A DNA stretch of 44,517 bases, from NCBI GenBank assembly GCA_002862205.1, contig PKCN01000143.1, forward strand, positions 1 through 44,517. Direction: 5' to 3'. Position numbers and translations under genes: made by a program. This DNA is from Planctomycetaceae bacterium. GTDB taxonomy: Bacteria > Planctomycetota > Planctomycetia > Pirellulales > Pirellulaceae. Shown one piece after another: positions 36,792 to 44,517 of the stretch (the stretch's first letter is position 1; each line of letters starts with the position of its first letter). Below the pieces are notes generated by a model. The model did no database searches and was not told the origin of the DNA. It saw only the letters and a program-made list of their open reading frames with translations.

Positions 36792-37799
36792 ATGCCCACT
36801 TTTGACGAACAAGGCCTACGCAAAGCAGCCATCTTGCTGATGAGTATGCCCACCAAGAATGCCGCCCAGGTATTGGGGCAACTGCCTCCCTCGTACATCG
36901 AGGCGGTCAGCATCATGATCGCGCAAATTGATTCGGTGGGCGGAGACGATCAGGAAATTGTGATCGCTGATTTTCTGACCAGTAAAGCGAGTTCGTTGTA
37001 TGCGAGTCCCGGTGGTTTGGAGCGTGCCAAGGAACTGATCAAAGAGGCGCTAGGGCGTGATGCCGGTGAGCTGATTGGCAACTTGCAGCAGACGATTGAA
37101 GCGATGCCCTTCAGCTTCATTAAAAAAGTTGAGCCTCAGACACTGTTGCAGTTCATTGGTGACGAGCATCCGCAAACCATCGCGTTAATGCTCAGCCACT
37201 TTCCCAGCAATTACGCTGCTGAGGTGATTGCGGGCCTTGATCCTGATAATCAACTGGAAGTGATCCGCAGAGTGGCAGCGATTGGGCGCACCAGCCCTGA
37301 GGCTGTCAGTGAGCTTGAGTTCGGGCTCGAAATGCGATTGAGCAGCATGGTGAATCAGAAGCACAGTAACGCTGGCGGTGTCGAGAGTGTTGCGGAAATC
37401 CTGAATGTTTGCGAGCGGTCCATCGAACGCACAATCATGGACTCGATTGGACGTGAAGATCCCGAACTGTCAGAAGAAATTCGCCGGCTGATGTTCGTGT
37501 TTGAAGATATCTCCAAACTTTCAGATCGAGATATTCAGTCACTTTTGAAAAACGTCGAAACCGCACAATGGGCCATGTCGCTTAAGGGAGCAAGTGATGT
37601 TCTGCAGGAAAAAATCATGAGGAATATGAGTACCCGCGCCTCGGAGAACCTGAAAGAAGAGATGGAGTATCTTGGTAGCGTTCGGGTCAGTGAGGTCGAG
37701 GCAGTGCAGCAAAAAATTGTTGATGTGGTCCGGCAGCTCGAGGACAGCGGTGAAATATCGCGTCCAACCGGCGACGAGGAAGAAGAATACGTCAACTGA
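36792..37799 (+). CDS. fliG: Flagellar motor switch protein FliG
   Basis: A C-ring rotor protein that couples stator ion flow to rotation, 335 aa. The three FliG regions are visible: the N-terminal FliF-binding part (RKAAILLMSMPTKNAAQVLGQL), the middle domain with the EHPQ motif (GDEHPQTIALMLSHF) and the C-terminal torque helix region (DDRDIQSLLKNVETAQWAMSL, then GSVRVSEVEAVQQKIVDVVRQLEDSGEI). Length and order match the family. It is isolated: neither neighbour is a flagellar gene, consistent with scattered flagellar genes in planctomycetes. A small hairpin precedes the start. Regulation by CsrA is conceivable, but no site is evident. Confidence 0.96.
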   Translation: MPTFDEQGLRKAAILLMSMPTKNAAQVLGQLPPSYIEAVSIMIAQIDSVGGDDQEIVIADFLTSKASSLYASPGGLERAKELIKEALGRDAGELIGNLQQTIEAMPFSFIKKVEPQTLLQFIGDEHPQTIALMLSHFPSNYAAEVIAGLDPDNQLEVIRRVAAIGRTSPEAVSELEFGLEMRLSSMVNQKHSNAGGVESVAEILNVCERSIERTIMDSIGREDPELSEEIRRLMFVFEDISKLSDRDIQSLLKNVETAQWAMSLKGASDVLQEKIMRNMSTRASENLKEEMEYLGSVRVSEVEAVQQKIVDVVRQLEDSGEISRPTGDEEEEYVN

Positions 37800-38122: not shown

Positions 38123-39313
38123 TCACTCTGAATCGTCATTTTCCGAAGGCGTCTGCCGAGTGTCCGCGGCGTGTTGGTCACTGGCGGCAAGGTCCGCCCC
38201 ACTTTCTGCTTGCAAAAGCGGGTCCGGGGGATTCTTGCCTCGCAGATGTTTCCCCAGTGAAATGCATAGTGCAAATGCCGTAAGCGGGAGCACGCCGTAC
38301 AGAACGATACTACCAAAACGCTCTTTCAAGTCCGGGTTGTTGGCGGCCGCGATCAAAAATCCCGTGTAAATGCCGTAATAGATTAGGAACAGCGCAGCTT
38401 CGTGTCGGCGAATGACGTTACCAGAAAGGAAAATCGGGAAGCACAAAATAGCGACAGCAACCATGATCGGGATATCGAAAATGATGGCTTCACTGGAGAC
38501 ATTGATGCCCGCGGGGGAAACCACTCCTGTAAGCCCCAGTACGCACAGGATGTTGAACAGATTGCTTCCCACGACATTGCCCACCGCGATGTCGCGTTCT
38601 CCCCGGTAACTCGCAACCACCGAAGTCACGACCTCCGGAAGCGAAGTTCCAATGGAAACGATGGTCAGACCAATGAGCAGTTCACCGACTCCAAGTTCAG
38701 TGGCAACGGTTACCGCGCCATCGACCAGTAAGTTGGAACCAAAGCCAAGCAAGGCTAAGCCAGCAACCATCAAAGCAATTTGCTTCAAAACAGCGGCCCT
38801 GCTTTTGGCCGCTTTTGAGTACTCCTGTGCGAACTCTTCGACGACTTTCTTCTCTTCATTACGGCTCTTGCGAATGCAGAATACGATGTAGACCAGCAGG
38901 GCTGCGAACAGCAGAACGCCCTCCCAGCGGGTAATCAGCCCGTCGGCAGCAACAGCCCACATCGCCAGCGAAGCAGCAATCATCAACGGTACGTCAATTC
39001 GAATCAACTGGCTGCTGACCACCAATGGTGTTACCAATGCGGATGTGCCCAGAATCAACAGAATGTTGATGATATTACTACCAATCACGTTGCCGACAGC
39101 CACGTCAGCATTGTTGGTCAATGCGGCCTGCAGACTCACGCCAAGTTCGGGGGCACTCGTGCCAAACGCCACAACAGTCAGGCCAATCACGAGTGGCGAG
39201 ATACGAAACGTTGCCGCCATCGCCGATGCACCATGAACCAGCAATTCACCGCCGCCCACCAGCATGATAAGGCCAACGATGAGTTGTCCGGTGACCAAAA
39301 GCGTATCGTTCAA
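38123..39313 (-). CDS. Calcium/sodium antiporter family (CaCA/YrbG) membrane protein
   Basis: An inner-membrane exchanger of 396 aa with about ten hydrophobic helices. The two inverted alpha-repeats carry the family signatures: VAFGTSAPELGVSL with GNVIGSNIINILLILG, and VSIGTSLPEVVTSV with GNVVGSNLFNILCVLG. The conserved Glu and Asn/Ser in these motifs bind the transported cation. Between the halves is a short hydrophilic loop. The C-terminus is about 45 residues of Asp/Ser/Ala-rich cytoplasmic tail (ending TPSENDDSE), longer than in YrbG. Its direction, sodium- or proton-coupled calcium export, is inferred from the family. It is isolated from other genes by 454 nt upstream. Confidence 0.93.
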   Translation of the reverse strand: MNDTLLVTGQLIVGLIMLVGGGELLVHGASAMAATFRISPLVIGLTVVAFGTSAPELGVSLQAALTNNADVAVGNVIGSNIINILLILGTSALVTPLVVSSQLIRIDVPLMIAASLAMWAVAADGLITRWEGVLLFAALLVYIVFCIRKSRNEEKKVVEEFAQEYSKAAKSRAAVLKQIALMVAGLALLGFGSNLLVDGAVTVATELGVGELLIGLTIVSIGTSLPEVVTSVVASYRGERDIAVGNVVGSNLFNILCVLGLTGVVSPAGINVSSEAIIFDIPIMVAVAILCFPIFLSGNVIRRHEAALFLIYYGIYTGFLIAAANNPDLKERFGSIVLYGVLPLTAFALCISLGKHLRGKNPPDPLLQAESGADLAASDQHAADTRQTPSENDDSE

Positions 39314-39767: not shown

Positions 39768-41735
39768 CTAAATCGCTTGCAGCAAGCGAACCCAGTTCAG
39801 CAGCGTGACCGCATCGGTATCTCCACCGAGAACGACAGGGTAGCCAGCTTTTTTGATCGCAGTGCTCCACTCGGGGAGTTCTTTCTCGGATGAGATTGGC
39901 AGCAGGATTTGCAGCGACGCCGAGGGGTTGTTCTCTTTGACTCTCATTGCAGGGCTGCGGGTCAGCGGCGAGACGGAGACGCCGAAGAAAGTGGAGCTTT
40001 GCGAGACCGCCACCGCAAGGGCCATCGAATCGGCTGCCTCAGCTCCAGTTCCGGAAATCGCCCCTGGTGCTGCGACCGCAACTGCTGTCGGATCAATGGT
40101 AGTTTTTTTCATGACCGCGGCAGCGAAGTTACCGATGGCATTGATTTCTTTTGGCTGCCATCGGCGGGTATCTTCCGGTGCAACCGCACAAATGGTGACT
40201 CCAGCTGACATCGCCGCATCACGCCATTTGTCAAGCGCTTCTGTTGGCGATCCCTCGCTGGGATTCAGAAGAAGCACCAGCAGGCCCTGATCCTGCGGTG
40301 CCTCAGATGCCTTGGGTGCCAGAAATGCCGCTGCATTTCCAGCGTCCGGTAATTTAAGCTCCTCCGTTTTCCACTCAGCTGTTTCTGTTTCTGCCCAGAT
40401 CTTGGGCGGTTGCTTCAGGGCAGTGCCTGATACGGTGCCGGGTGTGATCTTGATTGTCTGTTCTTTTTGTGCACGCTTGATCGTCAATTCGATCTCGGTC
40501 TCGGGGTCAGCCGACATCAATAAACTGCGAAGAACGGTCAAGCTGCTGATCTCTGCATCGCCGAACCTGAGGAGCTGATCGCCTCGTTCCAGTTTCCCAT
40601 CGGCGGGTGTGCCCAGCAGTACTGAGTTGACGATCACCGTCGCATCGCCATCGTCCTCCGCATCCTGTTCGTCAGCGAGGACGCCAAGACGTTGTGGTTG
40701 TAGCGGCGGTATCGTTTCCGCCAATTCGGTAGTGATCTCGATCTCTTTGCCGTCACGACGTAACTTGATTCGGATGGTTTCTCCAGCATCGAATCTGCCC
40801 AACGACTGTTTGATTTCCTGATGACGTTTGACGGGGCGTCCGTCGATCTCGATCACTTCATCACCCGCTTTGATCCCAGAGGCTTCCGCAGGTGATCTTT
40901 TTCGGACAGCCGAGATTTCCGTGCCGTCGTCGTAAGGGTCTTTGGTTTTTGATGCGATTCCAATCAGGCCCCGTTTGATGTCAGTCCCCGATTTGAGTCG
41001 CGTCAGCTTGGTGAGGATCACGTCGCTAGGGATCGCGAATGCGATTCCCGAATCGTACCAACCGGTGGGGTCAGATCCTGCACCACCCGCCACGGCAGGA
41101 ATCAAGATTCCCAGCGTGTTCCCGTAGAGGTCGATCAGCGGACCACCGTAAAATGCGGGTGACACACGAGCGTCCGTTTGTAAAGCCACGCCATCAAGTC
41201 GCTCCGCGCCGCTCAAAACACCCCGACTGATAATGGGAGAGGCGGCGTTTCCAAAACGCCCCACGGCCACAGTGGTCTTTCCAATCTTGAGATCCAGTTT
41301 CGACGGCAGTTCGATGGCTGCCAACTCCTTGGTGGTTTCGATTTTCAGGAGTACCAGATCCCGGTGGTAGTCACGTGCGACCACTTTGGCTGCATGGCGG
41401 GAGCCATCGGGCAGCACGATCAGGATACTGGCAGCAGGGCGGCGTACCACAATGCTCGATGCCAACACAAACCCATCAGAGTCGATGATAACACCCGACG
41501 TGGGCGCATCCTGCTCGACCTCGCCTGATGGGCTCTGTGCGGTGCCCACAATCTCGACAGACACGACCGAAGGTAGAACCCGGTTGGCTGCATTGCGTAC
41601 CGCTTTGGCCATCGCTTGGCGGTATTGGTTGTCTGCGCGGGACGGTCTTGCACTCGAGATACAGAGGCACGCGAACAAGGTCAGGGAAAACAGTGCAATG
41701 CTGTGGGGTTGAGAAAGGCGAGGCATGCGAATCAT
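39768..41735 (-). CDS. HtrA-like pseudoprotease with PDZ domains and C-terminal hydrolase-like domain
   Basis: The third gene of the operon, 655 aa with a signal peptide (IALFSLTLFACLCISSA). Residues 50-240 have the chymotrypsin/HtrA fold: SGVIIDSDGFVLASSIVV, then RDYHRDLVLLKIE, then QTDARVSPAFYGGPLID. Aligned to the first protein of the operon, the catalytic His is Ile95 and the Ser is Tyr196; only the Asp (D126) remains, so it cannot be a serine protease. Two PDZ-like domains follow (SPAEASGIKAGDEVIEIDGR and TPADGKLERGDQLLRFG). The last ~200 residues (LLVLLLNPSEG, then RRWQPKEINAIG, then IDPTAVAVAAPGA) resemble an alpha/beta hydrolase without the GxSxG nucleophile. Its ATG overlaps the previous stop by 4 nt. 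A scaffold or substrate-adaptor role is inferred. Confidence 0.86.
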   Translation of the reverse strand: MIRMPRLSQPHSIALFSLTLFACLCISSARPSRADNQYRQAMAKAVRNAANRVLPSVVSVEIVGTAQSPSGEVEQDAPTSGVIIDSDGFVLASSIVVRRPAASILIVLPDGSRHAAKVVARDYHRDLVLLKIETTKELAAIELPSKLDLKIGKTTVAVGRFGNAASPIISRGVLSGAERLDGVALQTDARVSPAFYGGPLIDLYGNTLGILIPAVAGGAGSDPTGWYDSGIAFAIPSDVILTKLTRLKSGTDIKRGLIGIASKTKDPYDDGTEISAVRKRSPAEASGIKAGDEVIEIDGRPVKRHQEIKQSLGRFDAGETIRIKLRRDGKEIEITTELAETIPPLQPQRLGVLADEQDAEDDGDATVIVNSVLLGTPADGKLERGDQLLRFGDAEISSLTVLRSLLMSADPETEIELTIKRAQKEQTIKITPGTVSGTALKQPPKIWAETETAEWKTEELKLPDAGNAAAFLAPKASEAPQDQGLLVLLLNPSEGSPTEALDKWRDAAMSAGVTICAVAPEDTRRWQPKEINAIGNFAAAVMKKTTIDPTAVAVAAPGAISGTGAEAADSMALAVAVSQSSTFFGVSVSPLTRSPAMRVKENNPSASLQILLPISSEKELPEWSTAIKKAGYPVVLGGDTDAVTLLNWVRLLQAI

Positions 41736-42736
41736 GGTTGCAGTGTTACGGGAAGGATTTGTGTATCACGTTGAACTGTCAGCTCAACATCGTCACGGCG
41801 GTCGATTGTTCGGAGCAAGGAACGCAGCGTCCGTTGGCTGTCCACTCGTTGCCCGTTGACCAGCAGGATCAAGTCATCGGGTCGAAGAGAAACGCGGGCC
41901 GCGGGGCTGTTGGGCGCAACCGTGTCGATATACGCGGGAGTCGTCTCAAGCACGTCAGGAACCATCACTAAGCCCAGGAATCCCGGGTTGTGTGAGTCCT
42001 TGCGGGGCAATGTGGCTGTCGAGGAATTCACCACAGTTGTTTTTCTGCCAGCGATGATGTCACCGATGGTCGTACGCAACGCGTTGGCGGGAACGGCATA
42101 ATTCAGCCATACACCGGTGGTTGAATCGCGAAGCTCTTTGCCGAGCATTCCAGCCAATTGACCGTTACTGTCAATCACTGCACCACCGGCTGCGCCGGGG
42201 TTGTTGGCAATCAAGTCCAGAATCAGGACTTTACCTCGGTACGGGGTTTTGAATGTTCCTCGTCTTGCATTCAGATCTGTCACCGATGCAACTGTCCCCT
42301 GCATCACGCTCGCCGGTTCGTTTCCGGTCGCAATGTTGAAAAGGTTGCTCACTGCGATCACTGGATCACCCCAATCCACCGTTCGCTCATTGTTGAGTTC
42401 AAAAAATGGCGTCTCGGTCGCTTCAATCTTCAGCACCGCCAGTTCTAGGGCGGGTTCAAAGCCAACAATTTTTGACTCAAATCGACGCCCGTCATCAAGC
42501 AGCACGATGGGCTCGACGTCCAGGACGTAACTCCAAGCGGTGGCAATGTGCCCTTCGGGAGAAACCAGGAAACCGCTTTGGTAAGCTTCCAGGCCTTTCA
42601 GCCCACCGGCACCATAGACCTTGACCACGCGTTTCTGCGCATCGCGAACCCACTTGCCCAAGGGGGCTTCGGCGCGAACGTCTGGCACATCCGCGAGGAA
42701 CAGAATTGCAATGGCGAGAACAAGGAGACGATTCAT
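41732..42736 (-). CDS. HtrA-like pseudoprotease with PDZ domain (all three catalytic residues replaced)
   Basis: The middle gene of the operon, 334 aa with a signal peptide (LLVLAIAILFLADVPDVRA). It has one trypsin-like domain and one C-terminal PDZ (FLGLVMVPDVLETTP, then SPAARVSLRPDDLILLVNGQRV). By alignment with the active neighbour, the His position is S69 (EGHIATAWSYV), the Asp is E98 (FEPALELAVLKI) and the Ser is A183 (NNPGAAGGAVID, against NPGNSGGP). The fold-preserving parts, such as DSNGQLAGMLG and WLNYAVPANAL, are retained, which indicates purifying selection on structure rather than decay. It overlaps both neighbours by 4 nt (ATGA). The likely role is as a partner or regulator of the active protease, or as a PDZ peptide-binding receptor. 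Confidence 0.88.
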   Translation of the reverse strand: MNRLLVLAIAILFLADVPDVRAEAPLGKWVRDAQKRVVKVYGAGGLKGLEAYQSGFLVSPEGHIATAWSYVLDVEPIVLLDDGRRFESKIVGFEPALELAVLKIEATETPFFELNNERTVDWGDPVIAVSNLFNIATGNEPASVMQGTVASVTDLNARRGTFKTPYRGKVLILDLIANNPGAAGGAVIDSNGQLAGMLGKELRDSTTGVWLNYAVPANALRTTIGDIIAGRKTTVVNSSTATLPRKDSHNPGFLGLVMVPDVLETTPAYIDTVAPNSPAARVSLRPDDLILLVNGQRVDSQRTLRSLLRTIDRRDDVELTVQRDTQILPVTLQP

Positions 42737-44517
42737 GCTTTCACCTCATCAGTTGCGTTTGTCTCTGGCAATGCATCTGCTGCTTTGGGCAGGTTCGAGT
42801 TGTCGCTATTCATCGCATTCTTGTTTTCCGCAGCCCATTCGAGCTCCGAAGCGGGGACTTCTTCCCACGACTTAACCTTGATTTTCAACAGGCTGCCAAT
42901 ACCGTACCGCAGGTCGAGAATATTCGGCATCGACTTGGAATCTCCCTCTCGCATTAACCATAGTTCTGCAGGGTCTTCATCGCGGTCGGCGAACACTTCA
43001 ATGGCTTCCACGGCGCCCGATTCGGGATGGCTCAGCCAACGCACTTCCAGCTCACCAGCGATGCCGACCATCACATCACGCAGTGGACGTTCACCACCCA
43101 AAGGCATGGTGCCCAAGTAATATGACTCTCCGAATTTGCGTGGCCCCTCCCTCAGCATCCTCCGCCAGGCATCCAGAGCCGGCAGCAAGCCTGCGGCTTT
43201 CCCATCGGTGATGGCGTCGTACAGTTTGCTCCGCTTGTCGATCTCAACGCTCTTTTGACCAATTGCAAGCGACATCCTGTTTGTTGCGACTTGAATGATC
43301 ACCGGTTGTGGGGGAGTCTGGTCCGTTTCTCCTATGATCCGCCACGCATTTTCAGTTGCGACTTTTCCATCTTCTGGTTCCGGCGGCGGGATAGTTTCAC
43401 TGACAGCTGGGAACTGATTTCGCAGCTCGGTGATGAACGAGTCCTGTTCTTGCAGATTGAAATGGTAGTTGGCAAAACCTTTTCGCTCCACAAGTTGATC
43501 CTGCACCTGTTTTGGGATTTTCACAGCAGGCTTTCGAGGCTGCTGGCCTCCGGGGCGTCTTTGCGGCGGCTGCTGGCCGTCTTCTTCTGGTGCTTTGCCT
43601 TCCGGCTTTTCTTCGCCTTCTTTTTCGGGCTGCTGAGGACGGGGAGGTGGAGGTGGGAGTGCACCTGCCATCTTTTTCAGAAGTTCATCTTCACCATGCA
43701 CGCCCATCAGACGCACGAGCGTATCGACGGTTTTGCCCTCGGATCTGTATGACATTTTGACTCGCCACCCGTTGGGCAAAGTCGCCATCACATTTTGAAG
43801 GTCATTGGCAGTTTGAACGACTCGACCATCAATTTCCAGAATCTCCGAACCATAGCGAAGACCTCGTCGGTAGGCGTCACTCGATTCAAGGATGTTCGAT
43901 ACAACCACCCCGCTGTCAGGATCAGTCGACACTGTCGCCCCCAGAGTCGCGTGATCAACGATCCGGCCGCTCCGCAAATAACCCAGAAAGTTCTTCGCCT
44001 GATTGATTGAAATGGCATATCCGACGCCGACATTCACGCGGCCACGTTTCTCAAATGAGCAGCGACCGATGATCCCGAGCAGGCGTCCTGCTGCATCGTA
44101 GATCGGGCCACCGGAATTGCCGGGGTTCACCGAAGCGTCTGTTTGCAGGCAGTCACCGTATTCCAGCAAAGTTCCGGAGGGGTATTGGTAACGCCCCACC
44201 CCGCTGAGAATTCCATAAGTCACGGTGGGCTTCAAGTTGGTTGCCAGCAGGAATGGGTTGCCGATCACCATGCACCAGTCACCTGCCTGTGCCGCACGGC
44301 TGTCACCCAATGCGGCGGCTGGAAAGTCGCTCCGCCCCAACAAACGGATCATGGCCAAGTCACCGACTGGGTCAATGCCAACAATCACAGCGTCGTAAAC
44401 ATTCCCATCGCTCATGCCGCAACGCATGAATGAACCAGCGGGGCTGGTCACGTGGAAATTGGTGAGCGCATAGCCATCCTCGGAAATCATCACTCCGCTG
44501 CCACCACCGCCACCCCC
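42733..44517 (-). CDS. HtrA/Deg-like trypsin-PDZ serine protease with novel C-terminal domain (5' end outside window)
   Basis: The first gene of the operon in this window; the frame is open through the window edge, so the N-terminus, including any signal peptide, is missing. The triad is intact. Counting from the first visible Met (44493), His is H14 (TNFHV), Asp is D45 (DPVGDLAMI) and Ser is S127 (NPGNSGGP). A PDZ domain (LGATVSTDPDSGVVVSNIL to DLQNVMATLPNGW) follows, then a Pro/Glu/Gln-rich linker and about 220 residues of a domain I do not recognise (GFANYHFNLQEQDSF, then GESYYLGTMPLGG, then DILDLRYGIGSLL-like). A Gly run precedes the visible domain. It is likely periplasmic or outer-membrane associated and would be the active subunit of this three-gene set. 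Confidence 0.92.
   Translation of the reverse strand, partial: GGGGGGSGVMISEDGYALTNFHVTSPAGSFMRCGMSDGNVYDAVIVGIDPVGDLAMIRLLGRSDFPAAALGDSRAAQAGDWCMVIGNPFLLATNLKPTVTYGILSGVGRYQYPSGTLLEYGDCLQTDASVNPGNSGGPIYDAAGRLLGIIGRCSFEKRGRVNVGVGYAISINQAKNFLGYLRSGRIVDHATLGATVSTDPDSGVVVSNILESSDAYRRGLRYGSEILEIDGRVVQTANDLQNVMATLPNGWRVKMSYRSEGKTVDTLVRLMGVHGEDELLKKMAGALPPPPPRPQQPEKEGEEKPEGKAPEEDGQQPPQRRPGGQQPRKPAVKIPKQVQDQLVERKGFANYHFNLQEQDSFITELRNQFPAVSETIPPPEPEDGKVATENAWRIIGETDQTPPQPVIIQVATNRMSLAIGQKSVEIDKRSKLYDAITDGKAAGLLPALDAWRRMLREGPRKFGESYYLGTMPLGGERPLRDVMVGIAGELEVRWLSHPESGAVEAIEVFADRDEDPAELWLMREGDSKSMPNILDLRYGIGSLLKIKVKSWEEVPASELEWAAENKNAMNSDNSNLPKAADALPETNATDEVKA

Follow-up and report, generated by a model that had tools for sequence, protein, structure and literature searches.

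Why does a bacterium encode, one directly behind the other, an HtrA-type serine protease with an intact catalytic triad and two relatives that have lost it? The question is raised by a stretch of 44,517 nucleotides from a Planctomycetaceae bacterium (contig PKCN01000143.1 of assembly GCA_002862205.1), subsequently designated the window, which corresponds to contig C33 in a genome of the Pirellulales type and has its closest named records in Rhodopirellula and Rubripirellula. At its end, three genes designated P1, P2 and P3 follow each other on the minus strand (39768..44517). We propose, at a probability of roughly one half, that they specify a single exported, hetero-oligomeric protease system bearing PDZ domains, in which P1 would be the catalytic member and P2 and P3 would be pseudoproteases assembling with it. 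In what follows, labels starting with L denote fetched loci, G genomes, and C contigs of the window's own genome.

P1 carries an intact catalytic triad, P2 and P3 do not

The trio comprises the following features, which were delineated from open reading frames (ORFs), Pfam matches, structure models and the sequence itself:

42733..44517, minus strand: P1, serine protease of the HtrA type that retains His-Asp-Ser; ORF open at its 5' end, 594 amino acids (aa); Pfam Trypsin_2, E 3.6e-28
44071..44502, minus strand: trypsin-like domain of P1 (blocks TNFHV, VGDLA, GNSGG); Pfam, residues 6-149
43714..43944, minus strand: PDZ domain of P1; Pfam PDZ_2, residues 192-268
42736..43680, minus strand: C-terminal extension of P1, Pro-rich linker plus predicted mixed alpha/beta domain; no Pfam match
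42733..42736, minus strand: ATGA overlap of the P1 stop and P2 start codons, read from the sequence
41732..42736, minus strand: P2, HtrA pseudoprotease with signal peptide (by eye) and one PDZ domain; ORF of 334 aa; Trypsin_2, E 2.1e-19
42146..42577, minus strand: trypsin-like pseudo-domain of P2; Pfam, residues 54-197
41744..41974, minus strand: PDZ domain of P2; Pfam PDZ_2, residues 255-331
41732..41735, minus strand: ATGA overlap of the P2 stop and P3 start codons, read from the sequence
39768..41735, minus strand: P3, HtrA pseudoprotease with signal peptide, two PDZ domains and a C-terminal alpha/beta-hydrolase-like domain; ORF of 655 aa; Trypsin_2, E 2.5e-19
41106..41498, minus strand: trypsin-like pseudo-domain of P3; Pfam, residues 80-210
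40722..40967, minus strand: first PDZ domain of P3; Pfam, residues 257-338
40446..40682, minus strand: second PDZ domain of P3, limits approximate; second PDZ_2 stretch, with model strands between residues 352 and 430
39783..40373, minus strand: C-terminal alpha/beta-hydrolase-like domain of P3 lacking the nucleophile Ser; model residues 455-651

Pfam assigns to each of the three proteins a trypsin-like domain and, C-terminal to it, one or more PDZ domains, the architecture of HtrA/Deg (S1C) proteases. Alignment of the triad positions yielded His/Asp/Ser for P1, Ser/Glu/Ala for P2 and Ile/Asp/Tyr for P3, the last Ser of the P2 block ATAWS being the residue aligned with the His. The missing 5' end of P1 was located on contig C35 of the same genome (L213), which shares its final 123 nt, without a mismatch, with the window end and whose open frame adds a signal peptide to P1, as judged by eye. 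The N-terminal hydrophobic stretches thus recognised by eye in P1 (on C35), P2 and P3 suggest that all three proteins are exported. A preliminary description, made from the letters of the window, had proposed three back-to-back trypsin/PDZ genes with two ATGA overlaps, one active and two dead triads, and retained signal peptides. ORFs, Pfam and alignment bear out the first two points; the third holds within the window for P2 and P3, the signal peptide of P1 becoming visible only on C35.

Triad loss and gene order are conserved among relatives

Among relatives, the intact triad was present in 140/143 P1 sequences, compared to 0/152 for P2 and 0/148 for P3. The three P1 sequences without full triad (L182, L073, L144) are truncated by contig ends. 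These counts exclude P1 of L208 (a P3 hit) and of L132 and L133, which looked misaligned at the His column, as well as P2 of L210 and P3 of L194, which are cut or misaligned. Single triad residues do occur, namely the His in P2 of L120 and in P3 of L187, and the Ser in P2 of L201 and L205. Six additional HtrA-like proteins encoded in this genome (L003-L008; 6 of 11 further matches) all keep His, Asp and Ser. Together with the counts among relatives, this places loss of the triad in P2 and P3 beyond chance. The Ser position is occupied by Tyr in 146/148 P3 sequences. Position 193, which contributes to the oxyanion hole in this protease family, is Gly in 152/152 P2 sequences and differs from Gly in 146/148 P3 sequences. 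A WYDSG motif (window 41046-41060, minus strand; P3 residues 226-230) varies little or not at all among P3 relatives; the block was invariant in the 20 P3 relatives compared and did not appear in the P1 alignment.

In 112 of 117 relatives, the search with P2 gave a match at E <= 1e-15, two of these matches being weak or partial (G062, G056). Four of the five relatives without P2 also lack a P1 orthologue, their best P1 matches being at the level of ordinary HtrAs. To assess gene order, 154 loci in 145 genomes were chosen by P2 hits, of which most, not all, were fetched (G007 and G062 are among those left out), and the synteny counts are accordingly conditional on P2. P1, P2 and P3 follow each other in this order on one strand in 138 of these loci; five encode P1 and P2 in one frame, in one (L208) a single frame covers P2 together with P3, and ten are partial. 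The latter include two with P2 alone (L100, L101) and two with P1-P2 lacking P3 despite sufficient room (L064, L157), and the remaining ones reach or lie near contig ends. The ATGA overlap recurs at 55/141 P1-P2 and 39/147 P2-P3 junctions, and a GTGA overlap at 16/141 and 22/147, respectively. Nine genomes (G024, G067, G069, G040, G079, G116, G096, G048, G038) possess the operon twice, the second copy being divergent (L197-L202, L205-L207); in this copy the P3 frame is short (376-443 aa) and leaves no room for the C-terminal domain. All 20 scanned P3 relatives match Trypsin_2 and PDZ_2. A search of plasmids with P2 returned six records sharing 27.6-29.0% identity with it; four of them carry an ordinary HtrA annotation, and two have none. 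The 3' tail of P3 in L010, located at a contig end, is unlike the other 16 aligned sequences and is likely an assembly or adapter artefact.

The ratio of non-synonymous to synonymous substitutions (dN/dS) was determined for whole genes by the Nei-Gojobori method. In four pairs of close relatives (dS 0.5-1.7) it amounted to 0.04-0.07 for P2, 0.06-0.13 for P3 and 0.08-0.10 for P1. Comparison with the window itself, where computable, gave 0.03-0.09 for P2 and 0.05-0.08 for P3, values that are less sure than those of the relative pairs, as dS is near saturation. P2 and P3 are therefore kept under purifying selection. The notion of the preliminary description that the substitutions are not random decay agrees with these ratios and with the complete absence of intact P2 and P3 triads, and the gene order and dead triads that it singled out for checking are conserved throughout the taxonomic order and outside it as well.

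The three lineages have a common origin across planctomycete classes

When 102 protease domains were placed in one tree, P1, P2 and P3 (a chosen subset of 32 rows each) formed one clade apiece. When the P3 profile was used to search 294 genomes of the phylum, a first tier of 46 rows (counted by eye) at E <= 1.2e-85, including the window, was followed by a weaker second tier, into which at least one true P3 (G059) falls by its E-value. Of 19 second-tier loci viewed, which stem from 14 genomes, 13 contain two HtrA genes lacking an intact triad, with an active gene behind them that in L281 is truncated ahead of its Ser. In G122 the order is active, dead, dead. These divergent trios, mostly of the dead-dead-active type, belong to genomes of other planctomycete classes. 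We also calculated a joint tree from 20 chosen rows each of P1, P2 and P3 and ten of the divergent three-gene sets, leaving out L279, L281, L285 and L290. Here, the dead genes joined P2 (support 100/91) and P3 (100/95), and the active genes joined P1 (94/58); long branches may affect placement of the divergent trios, and the P1 side is weakly supported. The three lineages share common ancestry across planctomycete classes, and one old trio with changed gene order would be the simplest reading of their distribution.

Natural fusions and co-divergence of P1 and P2

In five loci (L118, L120, L131, L202, L207), P1 and P2 are fused in a single frame with no signal peptide between the two parts. Mapped on a P1 tree (calculated without L208, L132, L133, L182, L073 and L144), the five fusions require five changes. 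We considered whether they represent frame errors at the ATGA overlap. The hydropathy of the fused junctions ranged from 0.63 to 1.12, whereas the N-termini of 129 separate P2 had a median of 2.48 and only 2-3 of them were equally low; a narrower stretch, ending inside the signal, failed to separate fused from separate P2. As the junctions lack a signal-like hydrophobic stretch, simple frame errors were rejected as explanation. The repeated fusions favour a physical partnership of P1 and P2, in which the two proteins would be in direct contact.

Evolutionary distances were compared over 120 loci (without L208, L132, L133, L182, L073, L194 and L144). The correlation was highest for P1-P2 (r 0.90), followed by P1-U1 (0.68), U1 being the gene upstream of P1, and P1-P3 (0.56), a comparison that is only suggestive as U1 and P3 distances may saturate. 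Similar correlations were obtained over 136 loci, from which the same seven had been left out and for which the maximum reached by permutation was 0.20.

C-terminal additions to P1 and P3

The model of P3 keeps the HtrA protease and PDZ fold. Its C-terminal domain gave weak BD-FAE/Abhydrolase matches in relatives; the nucleophile column holds Ser in 4/116 P3 relatives, and the elbow is only moderately conserved in the alignment. P3 thus seems, as judged from its sequence, to carry two dead enzyme folds. The model of P1 is weak (predicted local distance difference test, pLDDT, 63); for the L012 orthologue, the blocks modelled within residues 451-610 have pLDDT values of 65-91, mostly above 80. 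Matches of the HtrA part of P1 and P3 took up the Foldseek and VIA lists.

Comparison with characterised systems

Inactive relatives of a catalytic subunit occur in ClpP/ClpR, the proteasome and the iRhoms, whose folds or architectures are unrelated. In the chloroplast Deg5/Deg8 hetero-oligomer, two different HtrA subunits are reported to work together, both of them catalytic; Deg5/Deg8 folds were among the structure matches of P3. DegP, DegQ and DegS share the trypsin-like domain and PDZ with the trio and were its best sequence and structural matches among the proteins tested, but the characterised members are homo-oligomers, and P2 and P3 differ from them by the absent triad. As stated in a 2024 review (PMC11642142), all characterised HtrAs are homo-oligomers with the trimer as basic unit.

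By analogy, the closest characterised precedent is MamE/MamO (and MamE1/MamE2) of magnetotactic bacteria. According to PMC4794232, a trypsin-like protein with degenerate triad is required there to activate an HtrA protease, and such magnetotactic pseudoproteases evolved independently in three taxa. Common to MamE/MamO and the trio is an active HtrA encoded together with a dead trypsin-like partner. However, MamE/MamO has one dead partner per set, is encoded in the magnetosome island, and MamO carries a TauE domain and a di-His metal site, whereas the dead members of the trio belong to two lineages that both have PDZ domains, its gene context is a different one, and fusions of P1 with P2 occur naturally. 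The curated cut-offs of the MamE and MamO family models, which are 800, were not reached (P2-MamO 44.7 bits, P3-MamO 44.5, P1-MamE 118.5), and Pfam detected no TauE domain in P2 or P3. A further group to be compared are the MoxR-vWA ternary conflict systems, in which trypsin or inactive-trypsin proteins are encoded near MoxR and vWA, in planctomycetes too, according to PMC7159879. The trio differs by the AAA_3-type MoxR and the presence of DUF58 and BatA in its gene cluster (see below), and by exported, PDZ-bearing HtrAs.

The preliminary description had known of no characterised system of this design. In view of MamE/MamO this is too broad as regards the pairing of an active with a dead member; for a three-member HtrA set with two separate dead lineages, searches of an open-access library listed no paper. 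What goes beyond the known pairing is an active/dead/dead set of three lineages, wide in one phylum, with repeated natural fusions.

A proposed hetero-oligomeric protease system and its alternatives

From these data we infer assembly, a 1:1:1 stoichiometry, regulation and a physiological role of the trio as follows. P1 would be the sole catalytic subunit. P2 and P3 would replace identical subunits in the HtrA trimer, most likely at 1:1:1, so that each ring would have one active site. Through their PDZ domains and surface sites, they may select or hold substrates and turn on P1, and P3 would contribute a second dead enzyme module of the alpha/beta-hydrolase type. The hetero-oligomer reading, which the preliminary description had already suggested, gains support from the fusions, from co-divergence and from the joint loss of P1 and P2, assembly and mechanism being its conjectural parts. 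In a stricter form, which we advance tentatively and would not call the probable one, the trio is an obligate 1:1:1 heterotrimeric HtrA that arose once early in Planctomycetota and was kept since. One of its two pseudoprotease subunits would carry a fused dead hydrolase, and within the trimer the tasks of cutting and of selecting substrates would fall to different subunits. Such a set would permit a direct test of what a protease in quality control gains from dead subunits.

Several observations weigh against this proposal. The trio is not always kept together: P3 matches are missing beside P1-P2 in L064, L157 and L021 although the contig continues, P2 has neither P1 nor P3 as neighbour in L100, L101, L022 and L024, the trio genes lie apart in the genomes G203 and G221 (L100 and L101), and in G071 P1 is located away from a P2-P3 fusion. 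In G004, a draft genome from the same genus, two overlapping frames share P2 between them (L134 2715-3859), which may be a pseudogene or an assembly error, and G055, a 72% complete genome, has P1 with no P2 detected. The second dead gene keeps the Ser, with the His lost, in 4 of the 13 dead-dead-active loci (L277, L283, L285, L286). The weaker co-divergence of P1 and P3 could mean that P3 is a looser partner, and common descent is also reflected in distances and synteny. The link to the MoxR cluster described below was lost in the window's own lineage. For MamE/MamO, finally, no physical interaction was detected (PMC4794232).

The alternative that survives best, albeit an unlikely one in our view, is that P2 and P3 form homotrimers of their own, acting as non-cutting chaperones or PDZ adaptors which pass substrates to P1, and hence are partners in a pathway rather than parts of one particle. 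Such an arrangement would conform with the homo-oligomeric state of the HtrAs characterised so far (PMC11642142), with retention of PDZ domains in P2 and P3 and with the unlinked genes of G203 and G221. It does not account well for P1-P2 fusions that lack an intervening signal peptide, nor for the tight co-divergence of these two proteins.

We consider it improbable that P2 and/or P3 sense ligands or metals and switch P1 on by an indirect route, as has been suggested for MamO and MamE. This close functional precedent (PMC4794232) speaks for the idea, and the near-fixed Tyr and the WYDSG block of P3 could form a new binding site; but P2 and P3 lack the TauE domain of MamO, and the P1-P2 fusions favour direct contact. 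Very improbable is a role of P2 or P3 as enzymes with a different catalytic arrangement. The almost invariant Tyr of P3 and the four divergent P3-like genes that keep Ser while losing His would fit, but the triad columns of P2 hold His in 1/152 and Ser in 2/152 sequences, and P3 is devoid of Gly193 in 146/148. That P2 and P3 are merely decaying duplicates, to which one could relate the split P2 of G004, was rejected as next to impossible in view of dN/dS ratios of about 0.03-0.13, conserved long frames and retention across the phylum sample.

Genomic setting of the trio

A long co-directional cluster comprising MoxR, DUF58, BatA and uncharacterised genes ends with the trio in many planctomycetes. 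Among 20 upstream stretches of 14.5-20 kb (L215-L234; cluster names from Pfam on L233), U3-like genes were detected in 17, MoxR in 11, DUF58 in 12 and BatA in 10, and no cluster members in three (L222, L227, L230). MoxR of L233 matches AAA_3 with E 1.4e-62 as compared to 2.9e-10 for bpMoxR. Given this position at the end of a MoxR/DUF58/BatA cluster, the system probably serves envelope protein quality control or the stress response, and the trio would offer a way into the envelope proteostasis of planctomycetes. In R. baltica, an htrA gene, which may or may not belong to the trio, was induced in cold shock (PMC2754498). Many PDZ proteins in planctomycetes are recorded in a survey (PMC6411480).

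Upstream of P1, contig C35 encodes U1 (L213 3925-5208) and an arginine decarboxylase; an NPCBM domain was found in the L012 orthologue of U1, and decarboxylase domains were likewise detected in that locus. The U1 profile matches 125 of the 154 fetched loci. In the window's own genome only U1 is still linked to the trio, homologues of U2 and U3 residing on contig C66 and a homologue of the cluster gene designated C2 on contig C324. The U3/U2 homologues (L214, C66, 3-2151) adjoin an operon of the phosphate transport/PhoU-like type, named by eye. Downstream of the trio, the window contains a complete FliG gene (36792-37799, plus strand) and a sodium/calcium exchanger gene (38123-39313, minus strand), and homologues of the two are found downstream in 8 and 11 fetched loci, respectively.

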